Positions 10,963-25,961 of a stretch of DNA of 47,272 bases are shown piece by piece. The position numbers were made by a program, and so were the translations under genes. The notes under the pieces were generated by a model that was given only the letters and a program-made list of their open reading frames with translations, was not told the origin of the DNA and made no database searches. Source of the DNA: Eubacteriales bacterium. GTDB lineage: Bacteria; Bacillota; Clostridia; Oscillospirales; Oscillospiraceae. Position 1 is the stretch's first letter; the number at the start of each line of letters is the position of its first letter. The DNA lies in NCBI GenBank assembly GCA_030539285.1, contig JAUNSH010000019.1, positions 1-47,272 of the forward strand, written 5' to 3'.

Positions 10963-11853
10963 TCAGAACCGGGTATGGAGCATTTCCTCCCGGGTGGGGA
11001 TGGAGGGGGAAGCGCCCTTTCGGCTGACGGAGATGGCGGCGGCAGCGGTGGCCTCCTCCAGCGCCTGTGCCACAGGCTCCCCGGCGGCTATCCCTGCCAG
11101 GAAGAAGCCAGTGAAGGTATCTCCGGCGGCGGTAGTGTCCACGGCTTTTACCTTTTTGGCGGCAACAGCCAGTCGTTCCCTGCTGTCCTGATAGACACAG
11201 CCACGGGAGCCGAGGGTCAGCACCACGCGGCTATCTGGATACTTCTGCAGGATCCGCTCGGGGTATTCCTCCTCCGGCACCTCCTCACCGCAGAGGTCCC
11301 TAGCTTCCACCTCGTTCAGCAGGAACCAGCTGACGCGGGACAGGGGCATTTTCAGCAGTTCAGGGGTCATGGGGGAGGGGTTGAAGGCGATGACCATTCC
11401 CTTCTTCCCGGCGGCTTCCATCAGATAATCCAGCTGGCTGATCTCATTTTGCAGCACAAGCATATCGCCGGGAGAGAACCGAGCCAGCGTCTCGTCGATC
11501 TGTGCCCGGGTGATCTCCTGGTTGGCACCGCCAAAGAGCAGAATGCAGTTCTGCCCCTCGGTATTGACCTGAATGATGGCGTGGCCGGTGGGGCAGGGGA
11601 GACGGCGCACCAGCGTGCAGTCCACGCCGCTGGCTTCCAGCGCGTCCACCAGCATCCCGCCGTCCGCCTGACCCACAGCGCCGGCGTGGTACACCTCCGC
11701 ACCGGCCCGGGCCAGGGCGATGGACTGGTTCAGCCCCTTGCCGCCGCAGAAGGTATTCAGTTCCTCGGCGGCCATGGTTTCACCGGGACGGATAAAATGA
11801 GGCACCTGATAGACCCGGTCCAGATTCAGAGAACCAAAGCAGAGAATTTTCAT
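10963..11853 (-). CDS. PfkB-family sugar kinase, ribokinase-like
   Basis: A 296-residue cytosolic kinase that should phosphorylate a sugar, probably ribose or a related pentose, with ATP. The N-terminal PfkB signature is present (FCGGKGLNQSIALARAGA) and the C-terminal signature holds the catalytic base (DTTAAGDTFTGFFLAG, Asp of AAGD). Length fits ribokinase (about 300). ATG 11853 is supported by AAAGGAGCG upstream; a longer reading runs into the preceding gene. It lies 13 bases after the ADP-ribosylglycohydrolase stop and shares its LacI-controlled promoter. This context suggests it phosphorylates the sugar released by that hydrolase. The exact sugar cannot be read from sequence. Confidence 0.88.
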   Translation of the reverse strand: MKILCFGSLNLDRVYQVPHFIRPGETMAAEELNTFCGGKGLNQSIALARAGAEVYHAGAVGQADGGMLVDALEASGVDCTLVRRLPCPTGHAIIQVNTEGQNCILLFGGANQEITRAQIDETLARFSPGDMLVLQNEISQLDYLMEAAGKKGMVIAFNPSPMTPELLKMPLSRVSWFLLNEVEARDLCGEEVPEEEYPERILQKYPDSRVVLTLGSRGCVYQDSRERLAVAAKKVKAVDTTAAGDTFTGFFLAGIAAGEPVAQALEEATAAAAISVSRKGASPSIPTREEMLHTRF

Positions 11854-11866
11854 ATCCGACGCTCCT

Positions 11867-13969
11867 TTACAGATCCTGATAGGTGAAGTTGCCGAAAGCC
11901 GTACGGCCGGTCTCACGGGCGCCGCAGCCGAACATACCGTGGTCAAAGCTGCTGTCCTCAGCTTCCAGAACCGTCTGACCGTCGATCGTCAGCGTGATAT
12001 GGCTGCCGTCGCAGCGCACTTCCATATCATAGGCGGTGTCCAGCGCCCAGTCAAAGCTGCATTCCGCCAGCGTGGTGAAGCCAAAGTCATTTTTGAGGAT
12101 AACGGCTTTTCCCTTTTTGTCGAATCCCGCGGCGTAGCCCCGCTGGGCACCCTGCGCCCGGGCCACCAGCAGGTGGGACCCTCCGTTTTCGGGGGTCACG
12201 GAGGTGCGGAAGCGGTAATTTTTTCCGTAATAGCTGCCGGTATAGGCGAAGGCCTGCCCCATACGCATCAGCTTCAGCTTTCCGTCCTCCAGACTCCAGG
12301 CACCGTGGTCGGTGGAGAAGGGGGTGATGGAGGCAAAATTCTTTTTCTGCTTGCGAAGGTCAATGGTGTAGGCACTCTTTCCGGTAATGGAGAACTGGTC
12401 CAGATAGACCATGCCCAGGGTTTTCATGGAAGCGGGGGAGTAGGATTCCAGCACGATGCCCACTTCATCCACCTGATCGCCGTGGGTATCGGGAATGGTG
12501 AATGTCACATCGATCCACTGCCCCTGCACCAGTTTGACATATCCCTGCAAACGCTCCTTCTTGTCGCTGCACGTGCGCACATAAGGTGCTGCGCCCGGGG
12601 TCTCGTTTCCATTCCACTGATCCAGATACAGCTTCATGGAGACGGTCTGGCCGGGATAGGCCGTAGGAGTGAACACGGGGCTGTAGCGCTCGTCGGAGAA
12701 ATCCTCCCTGGTGTAGAAAGGCTTGTAGTAGACCTTGCAGTTTTCCCCTCTGGACATCCGGTCCACCAGGATCTCCAGCGAGCCGGTACCGGCATAGGCG
12801 TGCTTCGTGCTGTGCCGCGCCCGACAGCGGAAGGGATCTGACAGGCGGATATTGTGGGTGCTGCCCGGCAGTTCAAAATCAAAATAGACCTCACCGGGGC
12901 GATAGGCCTGCCTGAGGGCGGCAGGCGCTTCCTCTCCGGCGATACGGTAGCCCAGCAGGGCCGTCTCCCGGCAGAAGGAGGGAATATCCAAAATGTTCAG
13001 GTATCCGGAGATGCCGGAGCAGACGATGCCGTCGTTGATGGGGTCCAGATACCTGCGGGGAATCCCATCGATGCCGCAGGCTACACCCAGGATGGTGCCC
13101 ACGTTGCCGGCGTTGCAGTCAGTGTCCCAGCCTGCCATGGTAGCGATCTCGATGGTGCGGTCAAAGCGGCCGCCGCCGTAGAGCATCGCCATCACGCATA
13201 CGCCGGCGTTGGGGATGATGTGGCATACGCCGGGATATTTGTCGTAGCCCCAGTCGCGGAAGAGCATTTCCATGCAGTCCCGCCAGTCCTCCGGATGGGC
13301 GGCGTGGAAAGCCCGCACCGCTTCCACCACGCTACGGTAGGTGCATATGGCGGGGATCTGCGCAAGGCCCGCGTCCAGAATGGCGTCGATGTCGCGGGTT
13401 TCAAAGGCCTTGGCAATGGCCGCGCACAGGAACCGGGCGCCGTAAACACCGTTTCCGTCATGGGAAACGCTGGCGGCGGCCTCACCGTAGTCGGCAGCTC
13501 TGTGCGGTTCGCAGGGGTTCACCAGTCCCCAGGTGTCGATGAAAATCTGACCGCCGATCTGCTCGGCAATGGTCTTACCGTTCTGCTGGATGGAGCCGGA
13601 CTGGGGCGCGGGAATGCCGTTTTTCAGATTCAAATAAGCGGTATGCTCGGTGCTGATGCCGTAGCCGCCCCACCAGAACATACCCACGCCTTCCCGGGCG
13701 TAATTGAGCCAGGCCCGGGCCACGTCCTGCGGCTGAAGCGGACGATCCACAGCGTCATCGATCAGCGCGCGCAGGAAGAACACAGGGCCGTTGGCATCAT
13801 CGTCAGCGGCAAAATTTTTGAATTCCTTCACATAACCGGTAATGTCACCGTAAGTGTCCCGAATACGCTGGTAGGTCCAGATGGTGGGTTCCACCGGAGC
13901 GCCCAGCCGGATACCGGCGTTCATGCCCAGAAAGCCGGCGTAAACTTTTTCCAGATATTGATTGACCAT
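11867..13969 (-). CDS. ADP-ribosylglycohydrolase-fold enzyme with C-terminal beta-rich extension
   Basis: This 700-residue protein begins with an ARH/DraG-type all-helical domain (about residues 1-350). It shows GFLGMNAGIRLGAPVEPT at the N-terminus, an acidic DDDANG segment and a second metal-binding motif GWDTDCNAGNVGT, the positions that bind the two Mg ions cleaving N- or O-ribosyl bonds. The remaining 350 residues look like two beta-sandwich modules (for example DFELPGSTHNIRLSDPFR and the concanavalin-like FDWALDTAYDMEVRCDGSH segment), suggesting carbohydrate binding. No signal peptide, so it should be cytoplasmic. It is more than twice the length of a plain ARH. Promoter and LacI operator lie directly upstream and the PfkB kinase follows. 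True ADP-ribose specificity is not certain; members act on other ribosides. Confidence 0.85.
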   Translation of the reverse strand: MVNQYLEKVYAGFLGMNAGIRLGAPVEPTIWTYQRIRDTYGDITGYVKEFKNFAADDDANGPVFFLRALIDDAVDRPLQPQDVARAWLNYAREGVGMFWWGGYGISTEHTAYLNLKNGIPAPQSGSIQQNGKTIAEQIGGQIFIDTWGLVNPCEPHRAADYGEAAASVSHDGNGVYGARFLCAAIAKAFETRDIDAILDAGLAQIPAICTYRSVVEAVRAFHAAHPEDWRDCMEMLFRDWGYDKYPGVCHIIPNAGVCVMAMLYGGGRFDRTIEIATMAGWDTDCNAGNVGTILGVACGIDGIPRRYLDPINDGIVCSGISGYLNILDIPSFCRETALLGYRIAGEEAPAALRQAYRPGEVYFDFELPGSTHNIRLSDPFRCRARHSTKHAYAGTGSLEILVDRMSRGENCKVYYKPFYTREDFSDERYSPVFTPTAYPGQTVSMKLYLDQWNGNETPGAAPYVRTCSDKKERLQGYVKLVQGQWIDVTFTIPDTHGDQVDEVGIVLESYSPASMKTLGMVYLDQFSITGKSAYTIDLRKQKKNFASITPFSTDHGAWSLEDGKLKLMRMGQAFAYTGSYYGKNYRFRTSVTPENGGSHLLVARAQGAQRGYAAGFDKKGKAVILKNDFGFTTLAECSFDWALDTAYDMEVRCDGSHITLTIDGQTVLEAEDSSFDHGMFGCGARETGRTAFGNFTYQDL

Positions 13970-14009
13970 ACTGTGGTATCCCCTTTATATTGTTTTTTTA
14001 GCGTGAAAG

Positions 14010-14023
14010 AGTAACCGGTTACT
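14010..14023. promoter_or_regulatory. LacI-type operator O1
   Basis: AGTAACCGGTTACT is a perfect 14-base palindrome with the central CG typical of LacI-family sites. It starts 2 bases downstream of the -10 box of the minus-strand promoter. It matches 13 of 14 bases of the site at 15426-15439. Confidence 0.8.
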
Positions 14024-14025
14024 TA

Positions 14026-14054
14026 ATTATAGACGAAGTTTTTTGAGAATGCAA
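14026..14054 (-). promoter_or_regulatory. Promoter of the hydrolase/kinase operon
   Basis: On the minus strand TTGCAT (14049-14054), 17 bases, and TATAAT (14026-14031). The operator follows at once. Confidence 0.75.
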
Positions 14055-14204
14055 GAGGAATTTTCTTTTTTTGAAAAAACTGTTGCGCAGGCAGAATAAG
14101 CGTGCTAATATAATGAAAAGGCCGGAAATGCGCCGCATGACCGGAGGAATACAGACTTTGCACCCGATATTTCAAGCTGGGACAGCGGATAGGATGGATG
14201 CGCA

Positions 14205-15224
14205 TTGGAAAATAATCGGAAATACAGCATAGCGGAAATCGCGGAAATCTGCAACGTATCGAAAGCAACCGTTTCGCGGGTGATCAACGACAATCCCCGG
14301 GGGGTGGGGGAGGAGACCCGCCGCAGAGTTCTGGAGACCATCCGGGAATTGAACTACCGACCCAACGCGCTGGCGCGCAGTGTGGCTACCGCCCGCTCCG
14401 GCATGGTGGGGCTGATCGTGCCGGACGTTTCCAATTTTTTCTACCCCAAAGTGATCCGCGGTGTTATGGATTATATGGATACCAAGGGCTACTCTGTGAT
14501 CGTAGGGAACTCCGATTACAATCCGGAGCAGGAAGCAAAGCAGCTGCTGAATCTGATCGATAAACGGGTGGACGGCATCATTCTCTGTTCCGGCGCGTCC
14601 AATAAAAAGTTTCTGACGGAGTTCCGGAAATATCATGTGCCGATTGGACTGATGGGGCGTTCTTTCGATATGGCCCTGAGTGACGTGAGTATTTCCGGCG
14701 ACAATGTGAAGGGTGCTTTTAAGTCGGCGGATTATCTCATTCGTGCGGGATACCGGCGGATTGCCTTTGTAGAGGGAAATTTCGCCACTTCCGGTGGGAC
14801 TCAGCGGCTGGAGGGCTACCGTCAGGCCATGGCGGCAGCCGGGATCCAGGTGGATCCGAAGCTTCTGATGGAAGGGGATTATACCATTGCGTATGGCCGG
14901 GAAGCAGCAAAGGAGATCCTGCGGAAGAAGGAACGGGTCGAGGCAATCATGACCGGCAGCGATCTGGTGGCCATTGGGGTCGTGGCCCAGCTCCAGGCAT
15001 CCGGTCTGCGGATCCCGGAGGACATCGAGGTGATCGGCTACGATAATATCGAGCTGGCAAGCGTGTTCCAGCCGCCCTTGTCGACCATTTCCAAGCCGCA
15101 CTATGATATGGCGCAGCACATTGCTAAGCAGTTGATCTGCGTCATCGAAGGAGCGCGTGTCCAGCTTCCTCACATGACAGTGGAACCGGAACTGGTACTG
15201 CGGGAGACCACGAGAAAAAGATAG
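14205..15224 (+). CDS. LacI-family transcriptional regulator
   Basis: A 339-residue repressor. The N-terminal helix-turn-helix reads SIAEIAEICNVSKATVSRVI and is followed by the hinge helix NYRPNALARSVAT, which inserts in the minor groove of the operator. The rest is a periplasmic-binding-protein-like effector domain (MVGLIVPDVSNFFYPKVIRG, VDGIILC, RRIAFVEG, IEVIGYDN) for a small sugar-like inducer. Start is TTG 14205 with an AGGATGG-like site upstream. It is transcribed divergently from the hydrolase/kinase operon and lies just before the ABC operon. Both carry the same palindrome, so it very likely represses both arms. A terminator follows it. Confidence 0.93.
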   Translation: MENNRKYSIAEIAEICNVSKATVSRVINDNPRGVGEETRRRVLETIRELNYRPNALARSVATARSGMVGLIVPDVSNFFYPKVIRGVMDYMDTKGYSVIVGNSDYNPEQEAKQLLNLIDKRVDGIILCSGASNKKFLTEFRKYHVPIGLMGRSFDMALSDVSISGDNVKGAFKSADYLIRAGYRRIAFVEGNFATSGGTQRLEGYRQAMAAAGIQVDPKLLMEGDYTIAYGREAAKEILRKKERVEAIMTGSDLVAIGVVAQLQASGLRIPEDIEVIGYDNIELASVFQPPLSTISKPHYDMAQHIAKQLICVIEGARVQLPHMTVEPELVLRETTRKR

Positions 15225-15233
15225 ATACGACGG

Positions 15234-15270
15234 AAAACCTGGGGGCTGTGATGGCAGACCCCGGGTTTTG
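15234..15270 (+). terminator. Terminator of the lacI-type gene
   Basis: AAAACCTGGGG and CCCCGGGTTTT pair across a 13-base loop, followed by TGTGTCTTTT. Confidence 0.65.
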
Positions 15271-15382
15271 TGTCTTTTCGGATAGGATTTTGAGATACCG
15301 ATTACGCAGAATAGGCGGAATTATTGGGAGACACATGGCGAAGTACATAAAAAATTGATGCAATTACTGTGGAAATAGCCAA

Positions 15383-15411
15383 TTGAAATCCCCAAAAAGC
15401 TGTATTATAAT
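15383..15411 (+). promoter_or_regulatory. Promoter of the ABC importer operon
   Basis: TTGAAA (15383-15388), 17 bases, consensus TATAAT (15406-15411). The LacI operator begins 15 bases further on, around or just after the predicted start of transcription. Confidence 0.8.
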
Positions 15412-15425
15412 GACACCAGAAAAAG

Positions 15426-15439
15426 AGAAACCGGTTACT
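15426..15439. promoter_or_regulatory. LacI-type operator O2
   Basis: AGAAACCGGTTACT differs from the perfect operator at 14010-14023 by one base. Its position downstream of the -10 box would block initiation or elongation. Confidence 0.75.
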
Positions 15440-15462
15440 TTCGAGAAAAGGAGCGTATGCAA

Positions 15463-16392
15463 ATGAAGCGTGAAAGCCCCAAACCGTCCCGCCTGCGGCG
15501 CGACCTCAATCGGATGTGGTCAGACAGACTGCTGTATCTGATGATCCTGCCCGCGCTGATTTATTTCTGCATTTTCAGAGTGTGGCCCATGATCAATATG
15601 CGCCTTGCGTTTTACGATTACAAGGCAAAAGGGCCCTGGGTGTTCGCGGGACTCAAGTACTTCAAAATGCTTTTCAAGTCCAGTGCCTTCGCCCAGATTC
15701 TGCGCAACACGCTGATTATCAGCTTCATGAAGTACGTTCTGCTGTTCCCAGCGTTTGTGATCTTCGCACTGCTGCTCAATGAACTTCGCTCCAACGCTTT
15801 CCGGAAATACGTGCAGGTGGTCTCTTACCTGCCCCACTTCCTGTCCTGGGTCGTCATTGCCGGTATCTGGATGTCTTTCCTGGCACCCAATGCCCAGGGG
15901 GCGCTGAACCAGATTCGCGGCGTGTTCGGCCTGGATCCTGTGGATCTGCTGACGGATAAAGGAGCTATCCGCTGGATCCTGTTCCTGAGTGAGGGCTGGC
16001 GCAGCCTTGGATGGGATTCCATCATCTTCTTCACCGCCATTATCGGCATCAACCCGGATCTGTATGAGGCGGCGGCGCTGGATGGCGCGAACCGCTGGAA
16101 TATCATCGTCCACATCATTCTCCCGGCGTTGCTGGTGCCCATGACCACGGTGTTCATCCTGAACCTGGGCTTCTTCATGTCTGCCGGCTTCGATCAGGTT
16201 TACAACTTCTCCAATTCCGCGGTACTCAGTGTGGTGGATATTCTGGATACTTATGTAAATCGCGTCGGTATTGAGAACGCCCAGTACTCCCTTGGCACGG
16301 CCGTGTCCCTTATCAAGGGCGTAGTGGGTGTGATCCTGGTGCTGCTGACCCATGTCACTTCCAAGAAACTTACCGGAGAAGGAGTGTGGTAA
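15463..16392 (+). CDS. Sugar ABC transporter permease, CUT1/LplB type
   Basis: The first membrane subunit of a carbohydrate importer: 309 residues, six predicted helices beginning LYLMILPALIYFCIFRVWP, and the ATPase-docking EAA loop EAAALDGANRWNIIVHIILP. LplB-type permeases usually serve oligosaccharide or uronate uptake. ATG 15463 is preferred because the AAGGAG ends 9 bases upstream; the ATG at 15457 would leave only 3 bases. The stop is separated from the next gene by 2 bases. No ATPase gene is present in the cluster, so a shared MsmK-like ATPase elsewhere must power it. Expression should follow the LacI regulator. Confidence 0.92.
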   Translation: MKRESPKPSRLRRDLNRMWSDRLLYLMILPALIYFCIFRVWPMINMRLAFYDYKAKGPWVFAGLKYFKMLFKSSAFAQILRNTLIISFMKYVLLFPAFVIFALLLNELRSNAFRKYVQVVSYLPHFLSWVVIAGIWMSFLAPNAQGALNQIRGVFGLDPVDLLTDKGAIRWILFLSEGWRSLGWDSIIFFTAIIGINPDLYEAAALDGANRWNIIVHIILPALLVPMTTVFILNLGFFMSAGFDQVYNFSNSAVLSVVDILDTYVNRVGIENAQYSLGTAVSLIKGVVGVILVLLTHVTSKKLTGEGVW

Positions 16393-16394
16393 CC

Positions 16395-17282
16395 ATGAAG
16401 AAAAAGAAACGCTTCAGTCTGTTCCAGATCGTTCTGATGGTTATGCTTTTCCTGCTGACGCTGACTATGATTGTCCCGCTTCTGCATATTTTGGCCAGAT
16501 CGCTTTCTGACCCGCTGCAGTCCGGTTCCATGGGCGGTTTGGAGATCCTGCCCAGAGGCTTTTCGCTGATCAATTATCAGGTGCTGTTCAGCAACAAGAA
16601 CGTGGTTCCTGCCATCTTCAACTCCATTTTCATCACGGTGGTGGGAACGCTGATCAACATCGGCCTGACCATTATGGCGGCCTACGTGCTGACAAGACCC
16701 GGACTGGTGGGCAAACGGGTGCTGATGGTGTTCTTTATCATTATGATGCTGTTTGATCCGGGCATCGTGCCGGAATACATCGTGATCCGGAAGCTGGGGC
16801 TTATGGGAAGCCAGTGGTCGGTGATCCTGTGCCAGGCCGTGAATGTCTACTATCTGATTATCATGATGCGGTATTTTGAGGCTGTGCCACTGTCCCTGTA
16901 TGATGCCGCGAGAATTGACGGCGCGGGACATATGTGCATCCTGTTCAAAATCGTTACCCCGCTGGCAAAGGCCGGCATCGCCACGCTGACCATGTTCTAT
17001 GGTGTGCTGCGCTGGAACGAGTACTATCGTGCCGGCATTTACATCTCTTCCATTTCCAAGGTGCCGCTGCAGGTCATTCTGCGTAAGTTCGTTGTGGACG
17101 GCGATGTGACCACGCTGGTGGGCACCCAGAACCTGATGGACTACAACGCTCTTGCCCAGCTGGACTATACGGCGCTCCAGTATGCGACGATCATTGTAGC
17201 AATCGTGCCTATTCTGCTGGTTTATCCTCTGGTGCTGAAGTTCTACACCAAGAATGTGATGGCCGGCGGCGTCAAAGAATAA
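16395..17282 (+). CDS. Sugar ABC transporter permease, CUT1/YtcP type
   Basis: The second membrane subunit, 295 residues, with six helices starting FQIVLMVMLFLLTLTMIVPLL and the EAA-like loop SLYDAARIDGAGHMCILFKI. The C-terminal YTKNVMAGGVKE is characteristic of the YtcP/LplC group that partners LplB. ATG 16395 is chosen over GTG 16386, since GGAGAAGGAG lies about 10 bases upstream of it. It forms the channel together with the upstream gene, and the binding lipoprotein follows 63 bases later. Together the three genes form a typical CUT1 importer without its ATPase. Confidence 0.92.
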   Translation: MKKKKRFSLFQIVLMVMLFLLTLTMIVPLLHILARSLSDPLQSGSMGGLEILPRGFSLINYQVLFSNKNVVPAIFNSIFITVVGTLINIGLTIMAAYVLTRPGLVGKRVLMVFFIIMMLFDPGIVPEYIVIRKLGLMGSQWSVILCQAVNVYYLIIMMRYFEAVPLSLYDAARIDGAGHMCILFKIVTPLAKAGIATLTMFYGVLRWNEYYRAGIYISSISKVPLQVILRKFVVDGDVTTLVGTQNLMDYNALAQLDYTALQYATIIVAIVPILLVYPLVLKFYTKNVMAGGVKE

Positions 17283-17345
17283 GTGATCCCCCGAAGGAAG
17301 GTCCTTCGGTAGCAATCAACACTAAAACAACAGGAGGAAGAAAAC

Positions 17346-18875
17346 ATGAAGAAACTGATTTCCATGGCGTTGGTTTTGGCAATGGTGCTGTGTATGTTCA
17401 CAGGGTGCCAAAGCTCTGAACCCACCGCAGCTACCTCGGCTGCCGCACCCGCTGCTTCCGCGGAACCTGCCGCTCCCGCAGCGGAAGGCTCTTCCGAGTG
17501 GCCGGCCATCGGCTCCCCGGACGCACCCGTGACCGTTAAGGTCGTTGTCAAGGACGTGTTCCCCAGCGAGGAAGATGTTCAGGATCTGGTTGTCGCCGTT
17601 CAGGAGAAAATGGCGGCCCACGGTCAGTACATCAATCTGGAGTTCTGCGAGCCTCCTGCCAGCGGCTATGCCTCCGCAATGCCTCTGGCGGTGATGAACG
17701 GAGAAGTGGACGCGGACCTGATCTACTTCCAGGGCGGCGACCAGGCTGTGTCTGCCCAGGGCCTGCTGGAAGATCTGACCCCCTACATTGCGTCCTCTAC
17801 CTATGTCAAGTCCCTGATGGAGGACACCAACGTTGAGAAGCTGAAGAATTATCCCTATCTGCTGTGGCTGGCACCTCCCCGCACCCCCACTCCCGGTGTC
17901 CGCACCGATCTGGCGGAGCAGACGGAAAGCTATGCCGCTCTGCTGGCGGATCCCACTGTGGATAACTACTACGCGTTTATGAAGGAGCTGAAGGACAAGG
18001 GCCTGTGCACCTATGCTCTGACGGCTGACGGCGGCCTGAACCGTCTGGACAGCATTTTCAACCACGCTTTCGGCGTGACCGGCACCTGTGTTGAGGAAAA
18101 TGGTCAGTGGATCTTCGCCAAGGCCAGCCAGGCGGAGAAGGCCAAGCTGGAGTTCTACGCCAAGCTGTATGCGGAGGGCCTGCTAGATCCCGACTTCCTG
18201 ACCAATACCTGGGACGTAATGGAGCAGCGCTGGTATGACGGCACCGCGGCCATCGTTGCCGGTACTGCCGGTGCTACTGTGCAGATCTATGACACCAAGA
18301 TGACCTCCGTCTACGGAGACAGCGCCACCCTGACGATCCTGCCTCCTGCCAAGGGCGTTTCTCAGGCGTACACCTCCGTCGATGTTACCAAGGAGTCCCG
18401 GGGCTTCGCAATCAACTCGGACTCCGAGAATAAGGATGCCGCCTGGGCGGTTCTGGAGTTCATGGCCAGCCCCGAGGGCCGCATCCTGGATAAGGTCGGC
18501 GTGGAAGGCAAGCAGTACACCGTTGAGGGCGATAAGATCGTCTTTACCGATAAGTTCCCCGGCTGGTGGGCACGCTTCTGGGACACCACCTACAACTTTG
18601 CCCCCCAGGATCCGTCTCTTGCTGAGCCAGTCCTGACACCTGCAGCTTCCGAATCTCTGGAAATGATGTACCAGTACAGCGCTATGGATCACAGCATTCT
18701 GATCCCCGACGAAATAGCACCTCAATGGGATGCTATGACAAACCTGTATAACGAGTACGCAGCCGATATCATCCGCGGCGTGAAGAGCATCGACAGCTTC
18801 GACCAGTTCGTGGAAGAGTGGAATAACGCCGGCGGAAACGACTTCGCGCCGCTGCTGCAGGAAGCTTTCGGCTGA
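17346..18875 (+). CDS. Extracellular sugar-binding lipoprotein of ABC importer
   Basis: A 509-residue solute-binding lipoprotein. The signal peptide MKKLISMALVLAMVLCMF ends in a lipobox FTGC, with Cys near residue 21 for lipid attachment. An Ala/Pro/Ser-rich linker follows, then a large two-lobed binding domain of the LipO/YtcQ type that partners LplB/YtcP permeases. Features include KDAAWAVLEFMASPEGRI and a conserved C-terminal segment, QWDAMTNLYNEYAADIIRG. AGGAGGA sits before the ATG. It is the determinant of substrate specificity for the pathway; ligands in this family are usually complex or charged sugars. It ends 33 bases before the second ADP-ribosylglycohydrolase. Confidence 0.93.
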   Translation: MKKLISMALVLAMVLCMFTGCQSSEPTAATSAAAPAASAEPAAPAAEGSSEWPAIGSPDAPVTVKVVVKDVFPSEEDVQDLVVAVQEKMAAHGQYINLEFCEPPASGYASAMPLAVMNGEVDADLIYFQGGDQAVSAQGLLEDLTPYIASSTYVKSLMEDTNVEKLKNYPYLLWLAPPRTPTPGVRTDLAEQTESYAALLADPTVDNYYAFMKELKDKGLCTYALTADGGLNRLDSIFNHAFGVTGTCVEENGQWIFAKASQAEKAKLEFYAKLYAEGLLDPDFLTNTWDVMEQRWYDGTAAIVAGTAGATVQIYDTKMTSVYGDSATLTILPPAKGVSQAYTSVDVTKESRGFAINSDSENKDAAWAVLEFMASPEGRILDKVGVEGKQYTVEGDKIVFTDKFPGWWARFWDTTYNFAPQDPSLAEPVLTPAASESLEMMYQYSAMDHSILIPDEIAPQWDAMTNLYNEYAADIIRGVKSIDSFDQFVEEWNNAGGNDFAPLLQEAFG

Positions 18876-18908
18876 TTCAGGACAAATCACTGTAGATGAG
18901 GTAAGAAA

Positions 18909-19898
18909 ATGCTTACAAGACAAGAATTCATTGCGGACAGGGAGAGGGTCTTTGATAAGGTGTATGGCGCACTGTCCGGTCTCGCCATCGGCGACTCCTT
19001 CGGCGATGCCTCCCGGAAGCCGGAAAACCGGGCTGCTTATCAGGTGACTACCGACTTCAACAAGGGTGCTTCCTGGAGCACGGACGATACCGAGTTCGCG
19101 CTGCTGACGGCCAAGACCCTGATCCGCTGCCGCGGAAAGCTGACCACCGAGGAATGCGTTAAATCCTGGATGGAGGACGTGTGTGTTCAGGATGAGTACA
19201 AGCGGGGCGGCGCCAGTGAGATCGAGGCGGCGAACAACCTCAGGAAAGGACTGCTGCCGCCTCTGACCGGTAAGTTCAATGTGTTCCACATGAGTGACGG
19301 CTCCTCCATGCGCATCGGTCCGGTAGGCATTATCTGTGCGGGTGATCCTCAGCGCGCCATGGAACTGGCCCGCATTGAATCTGAGGTCAGCCATTACCGT
19401 GATGGCGTGTGGGGCGCACAGGCAGTTGCCGCTGCCGTCTCCGTAGCCATGGTGGACGGAACCATGGACGAGATCATGGATGCCGCCATGGCGGCGATCC
19501 CCGAGAATTCCTGGCTGTACCATAATATGGTGGGTGCCTTTGAAATCCTGGAGAAGCGGGGAAGCCTGCTGGAAGCGTGGATGGAGATCCATGATTTCCT
19601 GTGGACTACCCAGTGGGCCACCACGGCAGAAGCCATTCCATCCGCATTCGTGTGCCTGAAGGCCGTGCATGACGATTTCCGGAAGGGCGTGACCCTGGCG
19701 GGAAATTTCGGAAGAGACGCGGATACCATCGGCGCCGTGGCCGGCGTGATTCTGGGCGCAAAATACGGCGCTTCTCAGATGCCCGCTGCCTGGATTGAAA
19801 AGACCCGCTTCCCCAGCGGTACCTGCCTGAACTTTACCAAGGGTATCGACATCAAAGACTACGCGGAGAAGATGACAGACATCATTATGGAAGGATGA
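18909..19898 (+). CDS. ADP-ribosylglycohydrolase-family protein
   Basis: A 329-residue ARH/DraG-fold enzyme expected to hydrolyse a ribosyl (or related glycosyl) bond with two Mg ions. Both metal motifs are intact: SGLAIGDSFGD with WSTDDTEFALL near residues 55-65, and GRDADTIGAVAGVILGA near residue 270. Length is normal for the family. It is transcribed with the importer, so it probably acts on the imported compound or a product of it. It is clearly different from the 700-residue homologue in the left arm. The two may act in sequence or on different anomers; that is inference. Confidence 0.9.
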   Translation: MLTRQEFIADRERVFDKVYGALSGLAIGDSFGDASRKPENRAAYQVTTDFNKGASWSTDDTEFALLTAKTLIRCRGKLTTEECVKSWMEDVCVQDEYKRGGASEIEAANNLRKGLLPPLTGKFNVFHMSDGSSMRIGPVGIICAGDPQRAMELARIESEVSHYRDGVWGAQAVAAAVSVAMVDGTMDEIMDAAMAAIPENSWLYHNMVGAFEILEKRGSLLEAWMEIHDFLWTTQWATTAEAIPSAFVCLKAVHDDFRKGVTLAGNFGRDADTIGAVAGVILGAKYGASQMPAAWIEKTRFPSGTCLNFTKGIDIKDYAEKMTDIIMEG

Positions 19899-19942
19899 GT
19901 CCTGTAGAATACCGCGGGCAATGATTATGTAACGAAACCGGG

Positions 19943-19978
19943 AAAACGGGCCGTTGTGTTTGCAGCGGCCCGTTTTTT
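19943..19978 (+). terminator. Intra-cluster terminator before citD
   Basis: AAAACGGGCCG and CGGCCCGTTTTTT form a strong hairpin with a T run between the hydrolase and citD, only 21 bases before the citD start. I see no separate promoter in the gap, so it may act as a partial terminator that lowers expression of the lyase genes. Confidence 0.75.
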
Positions 19979-19999
19979 CATCAGGGGAAGGTGAGCAGA

Positions 20000-20296
20000 A
20001 TGATATTAAAGAAAAGCGCCATGGCCGGGACGCTGGAATCCAGCGACGTGATGATCACGGTGACCCCCAACGACGGCGGCGGTATCGAGATCGACCTGCG
20101 CAGTGATGTGGCGGCGCAGTTCGGCAATGCCATCCGGGAGACGGTCCGGGCAGTGCTGGAGGAGATGGAGGTCACAGATGCGGCGGTGACTGTATTGGAT
20201 CATGGCGCGCTGGACTGTGCCATCCGGGCCAGGACCCGCTGCGCCGTCTGCCGGGGGGCAGAGGCGAAATATGATTGGAGCAGGGAGGACGGCTGA
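20000..20296 (+). CDS. citD: Citrate lyase acyl carrier protein (gamma subunit) CitD
   Basis: A 98-residue carrier subunit of a citrate-lyase-type complex. It carries the phosphoribosyl-dephospho-CoA arm on the Ser of the AGTLESSDVMI motif, which matches E. coli CitD (AGTLESGDVMI). The QFGNAIRETV and DHGALDCAIRAR motifs are also conserved. ATG 20000 is favoured because it aligns with the usual N-terminus and GGGGAAGG lies upstream; GTG 19991 is an alternative. One base separates it from citE. The enzymes that make and attach the arm (CitG, CitX) and the ligase that acylates it (CitC) are absent from the window. Confidence 0.9.
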   Translation: MILKKSAMAGTLESSDVMITVTPNDGGGIEIDLRSDVAAQFGNAIRETVRAVLEEMEVTDAAVTVLDHGALDCAIRARTRCAVCRGAEAKYDWSREDG

Positions 20297-20297
20297 T

Positions 20298-21179
20298 ATG
20301 GAAAGAACGGGATTAAAGCGGACCTCACTGTATGTGGGCGGTTCCAGCCCCGGAAAAATGCTGGAAGCGCGGTTTTACCACGAGGACTGCGTAGTATATG
20401 ATCTGGAGGATTCCGTCGCGGCGGATGCCAAGGATGCCGCCAGATTTCTGGTGTATGAGGCTGTGCGGTATCACCGCCCGCCGGAAAAATATGTGCTGAT
20501 CCGAGTGAACGGCATTTATTCCCCGGAACTGCCGGAGGATCTGGAAATGGCGGTCCGCGCCCGCCCGGACGCGCTGCGCATCCCCAAGGTGGAGCACGCG
20601 GAGGAGGTGCGCAGGATCGATGCTGAGATCACACGGATCGAGAAAGCGGCAGGGATCCCGGTGGGCCGGACGGAGCTGTGGTGCAATATCGAATCCGCCG
20701 TCGGAGCCGTGAACGCCCGGGAAATCGCGGCAGCCAGTCCCCGCGTGGCGGCGCTGGCTCTGGGAGCTGAGGACTATACCGCCAGCATGGGCGCGACCCG
20801 GAGCAAGTCCGGCTTTGAGATATTCTACGCCCGGATGCAGGTGCTGGAAGCCTGCCGGCTGGCGGGTATTTCCGCCCAGGACGCTGTGTTCAGCGACTTC
20901 CGGGACCGGGAGGGCCTGGCCGAGGATCTGAAAATGACAAAGGGGTTGGGCTTTGACGGAAAGACTGTGATCCATCCCTCTCAGATCGATCCGGTGAACG
21001 CGGCGTTTACCCCGTCCGCGAAGGAGATCCGCAATGCCCAGCGGATCGTGGAGGCGCTGGAAGCAGGCGCGAAAAACCACACGGGCGTCGTGGTAGTAGA
21101 CGGCAGCATGGTGGATAAGCCAGTGGAGATCCGGGCACGCACCGTGCTGGCGCAGGCGAAAGCCGCCGGGCTTCTGTAA
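20298..21179 (+). CDS. citE: Citrate lyase beta subunit family CitE (HpcH/HpaI aldolase)
   Basis: A 293-residue TIM-barrel lyase that cleaves an acyl-carrier-bound hydroxy-dicarboxylate, by analogy citryl-ACP to acetyl-ACP and oxaloacetate. Key positions are visible: YDLEDSVAADAKDAAR, the Arg in VLIRVNG, the Glu in WCNIESAVGAVNAREI and the acidic pair in LGAEDYTASMG, followed by GKTVIHPSQIDPVN. Start ATG 20298 lies after GGGAGG. Length equals authentic CitE. Since the neighbours are sugar-related rather than citrate transport genes, the real substrate may be a citrate-like acid released from a glycoside, which is an inference. Confidence 0.9.
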   Translation: MERTGLKRTSLYVGGSSPGKMLEARFYHEDCVVYDLEDSVAADAKDAARFLVYEAVRYHRPPEKYVLIRVNGIYSPELPEDLEMAVRARPDALRIPKVEHAEEVRRIDAEITRIEKAAGIPVGRTELWCNIESAVGAVNAREIAAASPRVAALALGAEDYTASMGATRSKSGFEIFYARMQVLEACRLAGISAQDAVFSDFRDREGLAEDLKMTKGLGFDGKTVIHPSQIDPVNAAFTPSAKEIRNAQRIVEALEAGAKNHTGVVVVDGSMVDKPVEIRARTVLAQAKAAGLL

Positions 21180-21189
21180 AGGAGGAAAC

Positions 21190-22755
21190 ATGAGCATGAT
21201 CAACGCAGTGGGCAGGGAACTGCCTGACGCAGTGGGGAGCTATGTGGTTCGGCCCTATCAGGGTCTGGGCGCGGAGCAGGCGTACACCGGAACGGCGGTC
21301 ACTCGCCGCACCGTGCAGCGGGCAAAGGACCGGGAGCCGAAACTCCTCCCGGATCTGGTGTCCGCCATCCGGGCTGCCGGGCTGCGGGACGGGATGACCA
21401 TTTCTTTCCATCACAGCTTCCGGGAGGGAGATTATACCGTGGGTCTTGTGCTCACCGCCATCCGGAGCATGGGTATCCGCAATCTCCGTTTCGCGCCCAG
21501 CGCCGTGGTGAATATTTCCAACTGTGACCTGTTGGAGTTCGTCAGGGACGGGACCATTACCGCCGTGGAAGCCAGCGGCATCCGGGGTGTTCTGGGTGAC
21601 GGACTGATCAACGGCGAGGTAAGGCTGGAACAACCGGTGATTCTGCGGCCCCACGGCGCCAGACCCCGGGCCATTGAGACGGGAGAACTGACCATCGATG
21701 TGGCGTTCATCGCGGCATCCGCGGCGGATGCTTACGGCAACTGCACCGGGCAGACCGGCGCCAATCCCTGCGGCAGCTTGGGATATTCCTTCGTGGATGC
21801 CCAGAATGCGGGAAAGGTGATTGTCATTACGGACACGCTGGTGGAATACCCATGCGTGCCGGTGAGCATCAGCCAGCAGTATGTGGACTATGTGGTAAAG
21901 ATGCCGCAGATCGGCAATCCCGAAAAAATCGGCGCCGGCGCGGCTAGATTGACGAAGAACCCCCGGGACCTTATGATCGCGGAGATGACGGCGGATGTGA
22001 TCTGCGCGTCGAGCCTGTTCCGGCAGGGCTTTTCCTTCCAGACCGGGGTGGGCGCTATCAGCATTGCCTGCACCAAATTCCTGGCGGAGCGGATGAAGCA
22101 GGCAGGGATCACAGCCGGGTTCGCTTTGGGCGGCATTACCTCCGCCATCATCGATATGTACGATGCCGGGCAGGTGCGGGCGGTGGCCTGCAGCCAGTCC
22201 TTCGACGCGGTGGCAGCAAAAGCGATTCTGGACCGGCCTGGCGTCTATGAGATCGACAATTCCGACTACGCCAATCCCTTCCGTCGGGGCAGCTATCTGA
22301 GCCACCTGAATTTCGGCGTGCTTAGCGCACTGGAAGTGGATACGGACTTTAATGTGAACATCCTCACCGGCTCTTCCGGCCAGATGATGGGAGGACTGGG
22401 AGGCGGACCGGATGTGGCGGAGGGCGCAGATGTATCCATTGTGGTCCTTCCCATCGTCCGGGGACGGACGCCGTCCATCGTAAAGCGGGTATTCACCTGC
22501 TGCACCCCCGGCGAATCCGTGGCCTGTGTGATCACCCAGGCGGGAATTGCCTTGAATCCCCGGCACCGCAGCTACGCTATACTCGCACAGGATCTGGAAG
22601 CGGCGGGGATCCGGACGGTCTCCATCGGGTCGCTTCAGGAGCTGGCGCAGTCCATCACCGGTGAACCAGAACCGATCCGGACGACGGACGAAGTCGTGGC
22701 GGTGGTGGAAGCTCGGGACGGGACGGTTATGGATGTGATACGCCGTATCCGCTGA
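21190..22755 (+). CDS. citF: Citrate lyase alpha subunit (CoA/ACP transferase) CitF
   Basis: A 521-residue acyl-carrier transferase subunit that swaps the acetyl group on CitD for citrate (or a related acid), forming the citryl-ACP used by CitE. It aligns along the full CitF length: RPYQGLGAEQAYTG near residue 18, TISFHHSFREGDY, the GGITSAIIDMYDAGQV segment, DFNVNILTGSSGQMMGGLGG and TCCTPGESVACVITQAGIA. AAAGGAGG precedes the ATG. The start is 10 bases after citE. With CitD and CitE it gives all three structural subunits of the lyase, so the complex should assemble if accessory enzymes exist elsewhere. Confidence 0.93.
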   Translation: MSMINAVGRELPDAVGSYVVRPYQGLGAEQAYTGTAVTRRTVQRAKDREPKLLPDLVSAIRAAGLRDGMTISFHHSFREGDYTVGLVLTAIRSMGIRNLRFAPSAVVNISNCDLLEFVRDGTITAVEASGIRGVLGDGLINGEVRLEQPVILRPHGARPRAIETGELTIDVAFIAASAADAYGNCTGQTGANPCGSLGYSFVDAQNAGKVIVITDTLVEYPCVPVSISQQYVDYVVKMPQIGNPEKIGAGAARLTKNPRDLMIAEMTADVICASSLFRQGFSFQTGVGAISIACTKFLAERMKQAGITAGFALGGITSAIIDMYDAGQVRAVACSQSFDAVAAKAILDRPGVYEIDNSDYANPFRRGSYLSHLNFGVLSALEVDTDFNVNILTGSSGQMMGGLGGGPDVAEGADVSIVVLPIVRGRTPSIVKRVFTCCTPGESVACVITQAGIALNPRHRSYAILAQDLEAAGIRTVSIGSLQELAQSITGEPEPIRTTDEVVAVVEARDGTVMDVIRRIR

Positions 22756-22782
22756 GAGAAGCATCACAGGGGAGGAGATATT

Positions 22783-23478
22783 GTGTTATCCAATGAATGG
22801 ATTTTCCTTCCGGAGCAGACCATACTGTACGAGGTCAGGCACCGGATCATGGAGGGAGACTGTCAGGTGGAGCACGGACCGACGGCGGTTCACTTGTCTG
22901 CCTTTTACATCCAGCGCTACCCGGTCACCAACGGTCAGTATCTGGAATTTGTCCGGAATACGGGCTATGTATCCCGGGACGGAACCAACTTTCTGGCCCA
23001 GCTCTCCGGCAGACTGACCGCGGAACTGGAGGATCTGCCGGTCACCTATGTATCGCCAGCGGATGCGGCGGCCTACGCGGCCTATGTCGGCGGGAAACTG
23101 CCCACCGAAGCCCAGTGGCAGTACGCGGCAGAGGGAAGCCCCCGCCGCCAATGGCCCTGGGGCGATACCTATTGCAGCAGTCTGGTCAACGACAGCCCGG
23201 AGGGGCTGACCCCCGTTGACTGTTTTCCCGGCGGTGCCAGTCCCTTCGGTGTGATGGATCTGTGCGGCAATGCCTGGGAGTGGACACGGGACATCATTGA
23301 CGATGGGGCTCACCGATTCAATCTGCTGCGGGGCGGAAGCTATTACCGCGGCGAGCATTTCTGGCACTTCACCGGAGGCCCGCATCCGATCCACAGCCAC
23401 GAGAAATTTCCACTGTTTGCGGGAAATTTCAACCGGGCGGCAACAATTTCCTTCCGCTGCGTAAAGGAGGCGAAATAA
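22783..23478 (+). CDS. SUMF1/FGE-fold protein lacking catalytic cysteines
   Basis: A 231-residue protein with the formylglycine-generating-enzyme (C-type-lectin-like) fold: AFYIQRYPVTNGQYLEFVRN, GGKLPTEAQWQYAAEGS, WPWGDTY, GVMDLCGNAWEWTRDI and LLRGGSYY occur in the usual order, ending FRCVKEAK. True FGE has a catalytic Cys pair in the C-terminal RCxxR-type segment; here that segment reads NFNRAATISFRCV, with only one late Cys, so sulfatase maturation is unlikely. No sulfatase gene is present. GTG 22783 follows GGGGAGGAG. It is 27 bases after citF and overlaps the operon logic of the next gene. It may bind carbohydrate or act as another oxygenase-like SUMF1 variant. Confidence 0.85.
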   Translation: MLSNEWIFLPEQTILYEVRHRIMEGDCQVEHGPTAVHLSAFYIQRYPVTNGQYLEFVRNTGYVSRDGTNFLAQLSGRLTAELEDLPVTYVSPADAAAYAAYVGGKLPTEAQWQYAAEGSPRRQWPWGDTYCSSLVNDSPEGLTPVDCFPGGASPFGVMDLCGNAWEWTRDIIDDGAHRFNLLRGGSYYRGEHFWHFTGGPHPIHSHEKFPLFAGNFNRAATISFRCVKEAK

Positions 23479-23479
23479 A

Positions 23480-25214
23480 ATGGCGCAAATTGCGTGTGGG
23501 GAACTGCGGATCATTGCTGACACGGGCTGCGTGACGGCACAGCTGGGCACGATGCCGCTTCTGCGGGAGCCTGCCCCTCTATACCTTCTTTATGATGAGG
23601 GGGGGGCAGACCTTTTCTTCCGCAGACTTTCCGCAGGAAGCGGCACAGGCGGACCTGCCCCAGGGAACGCTGCTGACCCTTTGCTCCCATCCGTCCATCT
23701 ACGATGTCCGGGTGGATCTTCGCACGGTGCAGGGAGAGATCGCGGTTTCCTATACGATCAGTGCCCGCTGGCCCGAGGGAATCCCCGGTAACACCTGGAT
23801 CTCCTTCCCCTGGCTTTCCGCACTGGCCTTGCCGGAAGCGGAAGAACGCTTTCCTTCCGCACCGACGTCCAAACGCTGCGGGGACAGCAGCATGCAGCTG
23901 AAGGGCTTCTGCTTCCCGCCTTATTGCCTTGAACGCAGGGACGGCACCGGCCTTGGAGTCTATTTTCCGGTAGCGGCAGCCAATCTGACCTGGGACGTGT
24001 GCAAAAACGCGGAGCTGGGCAGGATCACCAACCGGAAAATGCTGGAAAATCACCGTCTGAAGCTTCGGCTGGCGCAGACACCTGCCATGGTCGCGGACCT
24101 GCGCCTTTGGCCACTGACCCGGGGCTGGCAGGAATGTTTCACACGGTTTCGTGGAGAAGTGCGGCGGGATGTGGACTTTTCGCAATACCGGCGTCAGGAC
24201 CTTGCGTGGATCCGTGACTGCGCCCTGGTTCATTTTACCTATGCTTTCGGTAAGGAATTTATGGATGCTTCCTCCGGCAGGCCGGATCTTCAGCGGCTGC
24301 TGGAGCAGGGCGCTGAATTCGGCGGCTACGATGCTCTGATTCTGTGGCATGAGTACCCCCGTTTGGGCGTAGACGGCCGCACCCAATGGGACTTGTTTGA
24401 GGACTATCCCGGGGGCCTGCCCTATCTCCGGGAGCTGATCGCCCAAGCCCAGGCCAAAGGCGTCAGAGTGGTGATCCCCTTTAAGCCATGGGACCGTTCC
24501 CCGGAAGAAAACGACAGACAGACGACCCACCGGATCGCCGATCTGATGCGGCAGCTGGATGCTGACGGCATTTTCTTTGATACCATGAATACTGTTCCGG
24601 CACCCTTCCGAAGAGCCATCGACGAGCGGCGGCCGGGGGTGGTGTTCATGGTGGAATCGGAACCCTGCGAGCAGCGGGCGATCGAATCCATCACCTGCTC
24701 CTGGAACCAGTACCATACGGAGCCGTCCATGCCTGAGGCGAACTTGCTTCGGTTCCTGTTCCCGGAACAGACACGGTTCGGCATAGCCCGATGGCATACG
24801 GGCAAGCTAAAGGATATGGCCATCGAACGGGCCGTGTTCAACGGAGAGGGCATAGTGATCTGGCAGGATGTGTTTGGCTGCTGGATGCCCTATTCCGAGT
24901 CCCAGAGGAGGAAAATCCTGCAGTGGAAAAAACTGCTTGGAGAATATCGGGCGGTGTTGCAAACTCCGGATGCCATACCGCTGATCCGGACAGAACAGGA
25001 ATATCTCTATGCCAATTTGTTCCGGCAGGGGGACCGGGCAATCGTGACGCTCTATAACGACGCACAGACCCCCGCGGAGGGACCACTGATTTGCGCGCAG
25101 GGCTATCGCACCGTGCAGTCTCTGCGCGGCGCGGAGGGGCTCTCTGTCTCAAACGGAGTCGTCTGTGGAAAGCTGTCCCCCGGCATTGCGGCCGTCCTGC
25201 TGCTGAGCATCTGA
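23480..25214 (+). pseudogene. TIM-barrel glycosidase-like protein, frameshifted at a G8 tract
   Basis: Translation from ATG 23480 (AAAGGAGG upstream) gives MAQIACGELRIIADTGCVTA... up to YLLYDEGG, then shifts at eight consecutive G (23599-23606). With seven G the frame would read on as EGGQTFSSADFPQEAAQADL and continue to TGA 25214, about 577 residues in all. The downstream part has a beta-rich N-terminal domain, then a (beta/alpha)8-like barrel with YDALILWHEYPRLGVDG, KGVRVVIPFKPWDRS, DGIFFDTMN and VVFMVESEP, which place acidic residues at strand ends as in retaining glycosidases. It resembles uncharacterised DUF6259-like or alpha-galactosidase-related proteins; I cannot name the family firmly. 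No signal peptide is visible. The shift could be mutation, phase variation or a sequencing error. Confidence 0.7.
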
Positions 25215-25575: not shown

Positions 25576-25604
25576 GATCACACAAAGATCAGGAGGTGAC
25601 AGCT

Positions 25605-25961
25605 ATGAATACCATCGGTGTACGGCTGCGGGAACTGCGTCAAAGTGCAAAGCTGTCCCAGGCAAAAATTGCGGCTATTGTGGGTTCCAGGCAGTCGGCG
25701 GTTGCTCGCTTTGAAAGTGGCGAGGCTCATGTCCCGGCGGATGTGATGATCCGGTACGCCGATTATTTCGATGTTTCACTGGATTACATTTTTGGTCGCA
25801 CAGACAAACCTCAGGGAAAGCTGTATGAGGGGAAAATGAAAATCGAGAAGGTCTATCCCGAGATGGACAAGTTCATCGAGATGTGCTTTGACCCCGGCTC
25901 TCCCATCAACGAACGGCTGAAAGAAACCCTTCGGGAAATGCTGAAGGAGGGGCAGGAATGA
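25605..25961 (+). CDS. XRE-family transcriptional regulator
   Basis: A 118-residue Cro/CI-type repressor. The helix-turn-helix covers residues 6-60 (LRELRQSAKLSQAKIAAIVG, SRQSAVARFESGEAHVPAD, YFDVSLDYIFGR). The C-terminal tail (MDKFIEMCFDPGSPINERLK) is probably a dimerisation or sensing helix. ATG 25605 lies 6 bases after AGGAGGTG; an upstream GTG at 25596 overlaps that site. It heads an operon with the KilA-N and recombinase genes, overlapping the former by four bases. It probably controls the cassette through the adjacent strong promoter. Confidence 0.9.
   Translation: MNTIGVRLRELRQSAKLSQAKIAAIVGSRQSAVARFESGEAHVPADVMIRYADYFDVSLDYIFGRTDKPQGKLYEGKMKIEKVYPEMDKFIEMCFDPGSPINERLKETLREMLKEGQE

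Follow-up and report, generated by a model that had tools for sequence, protein, structure and literature searches.

A LacI-linked gene cluster from Oscillospiraceae joins ADP-ribosylglycohydrolase-fold genes and a sugar importer to either of two putative acid-lyase gene sets

Introduction

In Salmonella, STM4065 encodes a transporter and STM4066 a PfkB-type protein. The latter has been reported to be an aminoimidazole riboside kinase (PMC3161100), and the E. coli genes yegT, yegU, and yegV are described as encoding a putative nucleoside symporter, an ADP-ribosylglycohydrolase (ARH), and a sugar kinase, respectively (PMC10819704). Here, we describe a gene cluster that shares with STM4065-4067 and yegTUV the presence of sugar-kinase and ARH-family genes in one operon. 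It occupies positions 10963-25214 of a 47,272-nucleotide stretch of Eubacteriales DNA (GenBank assembly GCA_030539285.1, contig JAUNSH010000019.1; hereafter the window), which is contig C40 of a draft genome of 2.78 Mb in 98 contigs (84% complete). Compared by published operon composition alone, STM4065-4067 and yegTUV have a single ARH where the loci described here have two to four, YegT is a nucleoside symporter of the major facilitator superfamily where an ABC importer is found here, and no acid lyase is named in the passages that describe them.

The rest of the cluster resembles systems of another kind. Citrate lyase operons (CitCDEFXG) share with the window the order CitD, CitE, CitF, and the window's genome has CitC and CitXG at another place; unlike in those operons, CitDEF stands in the window with hydrolases and a sugar importer under a LacI-family regulator, and CitE falls below its curated cut-off. 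In methylaspartate clusters such as that of C. ljungdahlii, the acid-splitting place is likewise taken by CitDEF or by the protein pair AtuA-DUF4387, but their acid is derived from glutamate, unlike in the proposal made here, and no ARH, kinase, or sugar importer of the window's kind was matched in two of them (L046 and L160; L, G, and C are our handles for loci, genomes, and contigs of the window's genome). AtuA of the acyclic terpene pathway belongs to the same Pfam family (PF07287, DUF1446) as the acid-arm proteins of three loci described below (L107, L110, and L120) and is annotated as the acetate lyase of 3-hydroxy-3-substituted glutaryl-CoA; it differs in having a terpene acyl-CoA substrate and 615 aa, versus ~455 aa and a separate DUF4387 protein here (PMC4847356). 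The cluster is therefore best filed as a variant of the ARH, kinase, and transporter cassette whose acid-lyase arm is either of two unrelated systems. Our calling it undescribed refers to the open-licence literature, in the searched parts of which no link between an ADP-ribosylglycohydrolase and citrate lyase was found.

Results

Open reading frames (ORFs) and family scans place twelve genes in two divergent sets (Table 1). The left-pointing set consists of ARH1 and a PfkB kinase, and the right-pointing set of a LacI-family regulator, permeases 1 and 2, a binding lipoprotein, ARH2, CitD, CitE, CitF, a SUMF1-fold protein, and a barrel protein. We refer to the kinase, ARH, and importer genes as the sugar arm and to the lyase genes as the acid arm. 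Every gene named in a first-pass annotation of this sequence was recovered in its place, the count being twelve against its "about eleven," and the test that it had proposed, namely whether the arms occur together in other genera, came out in its favor. CitDEF stands at the locus in L033 (Pygmaiobacter), L035 (Ca. Faecousia), L040 (an Oscillibacter metagenome-assembled genome), and L034, as well as in the genomes G535, G805, and G1473. L034 and L104 are parts of one genome, G439, and 113 of the 113 40-mers tested from its CitF contig are found in L034. A close form of the sugar arm is present in L033, L034/L104, L035, G535 (L105), G419 (L106), and G805 (L115).

A search with CitF as the query returned 17 close CitF loci (64-75% identity), four of them with the sugar arm. 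Since a count obtained in this way is biased, the searches were repeated with ARH1 (400 genomes of the family and 391 of the class) and with ARH2 (394 genomes of the order and 398 of the phylum) as queries, these genome sets overlapping. Besides the window's own genome, ten genomes carry an ARH2 orthologue (46-88% identity) together with the arm, and in nine of the ten the ARH2 locus includes the genes of an acid lyase: CitDEF in four (G535, G439, G805, and G1473) and AtuA/DUF4387 in five (G001, G669, G122, G1382, and G1507). AtuA adjoins DUF4387 in four of these five, the contig of G122 stopping at the DUF4387 gene, and the cluster of G669 lies on two contigs with overlapping end sequences. 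For G439, the ARH2-citD contig was recognised via CitF; the others were found without it. As background, CitF is matched in 35 of 149 relatives, a set that contains the window's own genome and is confined to its genus, and DUF4387 in 5 of 120 genomes of the family. In a chance model built on round figures, the probability of at least nine hits among ten is <4e-14 even if three such genes are assumed in every genome. Chance adjacency of the arms is thus rejected by the counts in genomes found through ARH genes, and the acid arm gains independent support from the five further genomes in which AtuA/DUF4387 takes the place of CitDEF.

We then asked which of the two hydrolases the acid arm follows. 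Among the 12 genomes examined whose ARH1 loci are without an ARH2 orthologue, an acid arm is seen in one only (G330), which differs from the ARH2 loci (Fisher p 3e-4) and indicates that ARH2 is the hydrolase that tracks the acid arm. The genome G390, which has an ARH1 match, was left out of the locus counts, and the ARH1-only loci L110, L112, L117, and L122 are cut by contig ends, so that a missing acid arm is weak evidence in three of them.

At the ARH2 locus, CitDEF is replaced by AtuA-DUF4387 in other lineages. Across the 11 ARH2 genomes, the window's own included, CitF and DUF4387 are complementary at the level of the whole genome in ten (Fisher p 0.015), the exception being G1473, in which both sets are present and DUF4387 lies elsewhere in the genome. 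On the ARH2 tree (14 rows, with 7 of the 21 ARH2-like paralogues left out), at least four switches between the Cit and Atu states are needed; well-supported branches alone force three changes of the Cit label and two of the Atu label, and L040 (CitDEF) and L135 (DUF4387) are sisters with support 100/99. Only 2 of the 11 inner branches are well supported and the labels are as scattered as shuffled ones, a pattern that would be expected from frequent exchange and equally from a poor tree.

The CitF phylogeny indicates that the arms were joined repeatedly. ARH-linked CitFs do not form one clade, and a constraint to monophyly is rejected (approximately unbiased test, p 3.8e-5; 40 sequences, 6 of 46 having been excluded for a length of ≤400 aa). 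The linked L040 is sister to the unlinked L041, and the CitFs of L115 and L136, which have CitC and CitXG alongside, fall outside the window's CitF clade. The tree rejects a scenario in which CitDEF and the sugar arm were joined only once, in an ancestor. As a caveat, the long branches of L115 and L136 meet on it; the L040/L041 case is independent of both, a possible alternative for it being loss in other lineages followed by regain. In L115, an operator of the kind described next directly precedes genes in the order PfkB-ARH1-ARH-CitDEF-CitC-CitXG, and in L136 a single strand carries LacI, PfkB, the importer, four ARH genes, CitC, CitDEF, and CitXG.

Exact copies of AGWAACCGGTTACTT occur at two sites only in the 98-contig draft genome, one ahead of ARH1-PfkB and one ahead of the permeases. 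These are the two matched operators of the first-pass annotation, which had also held that operators unlinked to these genes would speak against the system; none was found among the exact sites of the draft genome. Up to two mismatches, further sites appear at C32:50322-50337 and C4:1231. A control in which the pattern was read backwards gave 6 matches at two mismatches, about as many as the true pattern, and we therefore give weight to the exact sites alone. Within the window, at least five matches at three mismatches arose in 0 of 100 shuffles. The core AACCGGTT precedes both ARH1 and permease 1 in the window, L033, L035, L105, and L106, precedes ARH1 in the shortened L104, and precedes PfkB and permease 1 in L115, these being the seven close loci, window included, with promoter sequence on the ARH1 or permease side at hand.

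Regarding the acid arm of the window, CitD reaches 112.3 bits with TIGR01608 (cut-off 63.5) and contains the motif AGTLESSD, whose serine serves in attachment of the prosthetic group, and CitF reaches 563.8 bits with TIGR01584 (cut-off 501.45). Contig C21 carries homologues of CitC and CitXG, and parts of a second CitDEF set, of another CitF type, are found on C88 and C36, so that the CitDEF of the window is an extra copy. A side observation concerns close CitDEF relatives (L036 5688-12381, L037, L042, and L049) that stand with PrpF-like, aconitase/LeuC-like, and amidohydrolase genes in varying combinations, the amidohydrolase belonging to PF04909 (confirmed in L036); these neighborhoods perhaps represent another tricarboxylic acid route.

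Clues to the function of AtuA-DUF4387 come from methylaspartate clusters, where the pair occurs, E. coli included, at the step that needs a citramalate lyase. It stands beside fumarase-type (mesaconase-like) genes in L169 and L170, and in C. ljungdahlii (L046) fumarase-type genes and CitDEF-CitC hold its place. Given the exchange both at ARH2 loci and in methylaspartate clusters, CitDEF and AtuA-DUF4387 share at least two pathway slots, and this replacement of one lyase system by an unrelated one is what leads us to predict a lyase function for AtuA (DUF1446) and DUF4387. Methylaspartate clusters, C. ljungdahlii among them, have been named with putative citramalate lyase genes, and an unknown DUF1446 gene has been noted after the ammonia-lyase in Enterobacteriaceae; the same 2015 report describes that no citramalate lyase activity was found in the E. 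coli strain tested and states that the fate of (S)-citramalate in such a strain was still unclear (PMC4682846). In an E. coli genome, ECs_0760 matches PF07287 and its neighbor ECs_0759 matches DUF4387, beside methylaspartate ammonia-lyase. ECs_0760 shares 46-51% identity with the AtuA proteins of L107, L110, and L120, and these three form a branch of their own (support 99/99), so that their substrate may differ from that of ECs_0760. The corresponding protein of L137 (37%) has no Pfam match and is called AtuA-like from its 34-42% identity to most members (29-30% to the two of L171) and the adjoining DUF4387; that of L138 takes the label from its 62% identity to the L137 protein. As to the acid, the methylaspartate context makes citramalate as good a candidate as citrate. 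We also note that ECs_0760 is annotated as a second 3-methylaspartate ammonia-lyase and ECs_0759 as an acyl-CoA synthetase (L174 31934-33618), both of which look wrong; the first of these annotations has been remarked on before (PMC4682846).

Turning to the sugar arm, the nearest solved structures of the PfkB kinase are ribokinases, its motifs resemble those of ribokinases (Table 1), and its score with the ribokinase model TIGR02152 is 247.1 bits, under the cut-off of 299.65. Both hydrolases match PF03747 (ARH/DraG fold). The metal motifs of the ARH family are TDDT and DxDT; ARH2 has STDDTE and DADTIGA, and ARH1 has DTDCNAG in place of DADTIGA. Residues 546-697 of ARH1 match the levanase domain 4azz (E 6e-7), which we take to be CBM66. 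The importer, presumably of the CUT1 class, consists of two permeases and the binding lipoprotein with no ATPase gene of its own, and MalK-type ATPases are encoded elsewhere in the genome (MalK OB-domain matches on C47 and C66). Best matches of the lipoprotein are weak (E 1e-5) and fall on a family-1 solute-binding protein (5gub type) and the alginate-binding AlgQ1. A transaldolase-family gene follows PfkB in L033, and an esterase-like gene lies within three AtuA-type loci (L107, L110, and L137), which fits an ester in the cargo. The kinase, the ARH1 domain, the neighborhoods of ARH1, the binding-protein matches, and the esterase and transaldolase context together make a pentofuranose the likely sugar, with ribose as the most likely one.

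Several ARH neighborhoods deserve mention in their own right. In L108, an ARH1 relative lies near nucleoside hydrolase (PF01156) and L-rhamnose isomerase-like (PF06134) genes and a Pot-like ABC importer; L109 and L112 contain similar ARH1-family clusters as judged by eye, the Pfam check covering L108 alone, and in L113 an ARH1 relative stands among nucleoside genes, also named by eye. In L136 (9488-13857), four consecutive ARH-family genes lie in operon-like arrangement beside a full citrate lyase set, the families being assigned from tblastn similarity.

Discussion

We give about an even chance to the proposal that the cluster is a LacI-regulated module for the use of an imported conjugate in which a furanose-like sugar is joined to a hydroxy acid of the citrate type. 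In such a module, the lipoprotein and the two permeases would import the conjugate, with energy probably supplied by a shared ATPase whose gene lies elsewhere; ARH2 would cut the sugar-acid bond and free the acid, ARH1 would work on the glycan side, and the ribokinase-like PfkB would phosphorylate the sugar. CitD/E/F would then split the acid into acetate and a 2-oxoacid, which would be pyruvate in the case of citramalate and oxaloacetate in that of citrate; in other lineages, AtuA-DUF4387 would carry out this step. Directly observed are the genes and operators themselves, the recurrence of the two arms together, and the replacement of one lyase set by the other. We infer that a single molecule serves as substrate, which bond each ARH would cut, the nature of the sugar (most likely ribose) and of the acid (citramalate or citrate), and what AtuA-DUF4387 catalyses.

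A number of results weigh against this proposal. Twelve of the 17 close CitF loci show no sugar arm, some of them on short contigs, and L058 keeps only a remnant of it, the last 39 residues of ARH2 before CitD. Conversely, G419 has the sugar arm with neither lyase in the available stretch, ~19 kb downstream included; in other parts of its genome, two fragments of CitF resembling that of the window lie at the ends of contigs. No copy of the operator core was found in L107, L119, L137, L040, or L136, and L110, L120, L135, and L138 show one-base variants only, that of L135 (position 891) being located upstream of LacI; judged by this distribution of matches, the core is a trait of close CitDEF-type loci and not of AtuA-type loci, L040, or L136. 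In L033, CitDEF forms a unit of its own that is convergent with the sugar arm, lacks the operator, and has a LysR gene upstream. The window's CitE scores 296.6 bits with TIGR01588, under the cut-off of 443.4. The same holds for nine of ten relatives, including the common copy of the genus (L063) and that of C. ljungdahlii (L046), only L115 passing with 445.1 bits, and CitF passes its cut-off in 10 of 10; as a discriminator between citrate and citramalate lyase, the curated cut-offs are thus uninformative. Moreover, action of ARH proteins on substrates beyond ADP-ribose is itself a prediction here, and no known sugar-acid conjugate turned up in the open-licence literature.

A further point concerns transcription of the two arms. 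A terminator-like hairpin between ARH2 and citD, missed in the first-pass annotation, is found in all five loci with that junction (the window, L034, L035, L105, and L058) and qualifies a reading of the genes as one operon. The window, L105, and L058 share the core of the stem, L035 has a similar one, and that of L034 differs; by eye, no comparable hairpin is seen in the short gap before the cit genes of L115 and L136. If it were a full terminator, the hairpin would cut the acid arm off. In the window, it lies ~20 bases from citD, a gap so short that a separate promoter within it is unlikely, and we read it as a partial terminator damping the acid arm.

The hairpin also speaks for a different explanation, in which acid and sugar come from different molecules that occur together, as in plant sap or lysed cells, and the cluster is a co-induced feeding set. 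The separate units of L033 would suit such a set, as would the occurrence of this clade's CitDEF on its own or next to fumarase, aconitase-like, and PrpF-like genes. We nevertheless regard it as rather unlikely: family scans of the window's cluster genes identified no carrier for citrate or dicarboxylates, and the acid arm goes with ARH2 rather than with ARH1, in keeping with release of the acid by ARH2. The repeated joining of the arms on the CitF and ARH2 trees, together with the exclusion of chance adjacency, makes it improbable that we are dealing with a nucleoside or riboside salvage cassette of the STM4065-4067/yegTUV kind that lies beside an acid lyase by accident, even though kinase, ARH, and transporter genes are known together and some ARH1 relatives adjoin nucleoside hydrolases.

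Two further explanations would direct the ARH proteins at the cell's own molecules. The prosthetic group of citrate lyase, 2'-(5''-phosphoribosyl)-3'-dephospho-CoA, contains an alpha-ribosyl linkage that resembles ARH substrates, and the ARHs could act on it to recycle the lyase or switch it off. Its chemistry suits ARH enzymes and CitD has the attachment motif, but ARH2 orthologues adjoin AtuA-DUF4387 in five genomes without a CitF match and the importer would be left unexplained. The existence of these AtuA-type loci leads us to set this explanation aside as very unlikely. We see barely any chance that the ARHs reverse ADP-ribosylation of a cluster enzyme, as DraG does on dinitrogenase reductase: the fold and metal motif of ARH2 would allow it, but no ADP-ribosyltransferase family was found among the cluster genes scanned in the window, and loci with two to four ARH genes plus an importer do not fit such a role.

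Returning to the conjugate proposal, the cluster suggests that gut bacteria may feed on a class of sugar-acid conjugates, one for which we found no name. It is tempting to speculate further, as a tentative idea to which we give less than an even chance, that CitDEF and AtuA-DUF4387 are interchangeable acetate-releasing lyases for tertiary 2-hydroxy acids, that AtuA-DUF4387 is the missing citramalate lyase of the methylaspartate pathway, E. coli included, and that ARH2 represents a new class of hydrolases freeing such acids from unrecognised sugar-acid conjugates used by gut Clostridia. The open question of citramalate in E. coli thereby becomes directly assayable through AtuA-DUF4387.

Features of the window and accessory genes

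Table 1. Positions of the genes and sites of the cluster in the window
Feature	Position	Strand	Evidence
PfkB/ribokinase-like sugar kinase	10963..11853	-	PF00294 E 1.7e-51; GSLNLD, GGKGLNQ, LQNE, and DTTAAGD motifs
ARH1, ARH-fold hydrolase, 700 aa	11867..13969	-	PF03747 at residues 12-306, E 1.5e-53; C-terminal levanase-related domain
Operator 1, before ARH1-PfkB	14010..14024	.	exact match to AGWAACCGGTTACTT
LacI-family regulator	14205..15224	+	PF00356, PF13377
Terminator-like hairpin 3' of LacI	15234..15269	+	fold of 15219-15460
Promoter-like site TTGAAA-17-TATAAT	15383..15411	+	putative, from consensus match only (11 of 12 positions)
Operator 2, directly 3' of promoter-like site	15426..15440	.	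exact match to AGWAACCGGTTACTT
ABC permease 1, CUT1-like	15457..16392	+	PF00528 E 2.6e-9
ABC permease 2	16386..17282	+	PF00528 20.1 bits, below cut-off; orthologues at the equivalent place in relatives
Solute-binding lipoprotein	17346..18875	+	PF01547 E 2.7e-15
ARH2, ARH-fold hydrolase, 329 aa	18909..19898	+	PF03747 E 6.1e-49; STDDTE and DADTIGA motifs
Strong GC-rich hairpin and T-run, ARH2/citD junction	19943..19978	+	folding; not listed by the terminator scan
CitD acyl carrier	19991..20296	+	TIGR01608; AGTLESSD motif
CitE lyase subunit	about 20298..21179	+	PF03328 E 7e-57
CitF acyl-carrier transferase subunit	21190..22755	+	TIGR01584
SUMF1-fold protein	22783..23478	+	PF03781 E 2.3e-35
Glycosidase-like barrel protein, 540 aa	23592..25214	+	homologue in L035; no Pfam family

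The last two genes of the cluster recur in L035, behind a GntR-like gene (identified by eye) and with a second PfkB kinase, and in L138 they are fused into one protein beside AtuA-DUF4387, which makes it probable that the SUMF1-fold and barrel proteins cooperate. Searches by tblastn did not detect them in L033, L034, L040, L105, or L115, so that the pair is not essential to the system. Formylglycine-generating enzymes have two catalytic cysteines near the C-terminus; despite its PF03781 match, the translated SUMF1-fold protein shows no cysteine pair after RGGSYYRG when inspected by eye. The barrel protein is 37% identical to its L035 homologue (592 aa) and has a shorter N-terminus. It has no Pfam match at E 0.001, the best being GH97 at E 0.08, and its best match among solved structures has E 0.065. 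A frame break in its gene had been suspected from an ORF in another frame (23480-23791) and a run of eight G (23599-23606), the window's only G or C run of at least eight; the ORF is unlike the L035 protein (best E 0.44), and the suspicion was dropped. Directly after the cluster, at 25596-28381, lie a helix-turn-helix gene, a KilA-N gene, and a gene for a large serine recombinase, and a 42-nt imperfect repeat, itself palindromic, is present at 28291 and 28529; the region 25596-28381 is perhaps a small mobile element.

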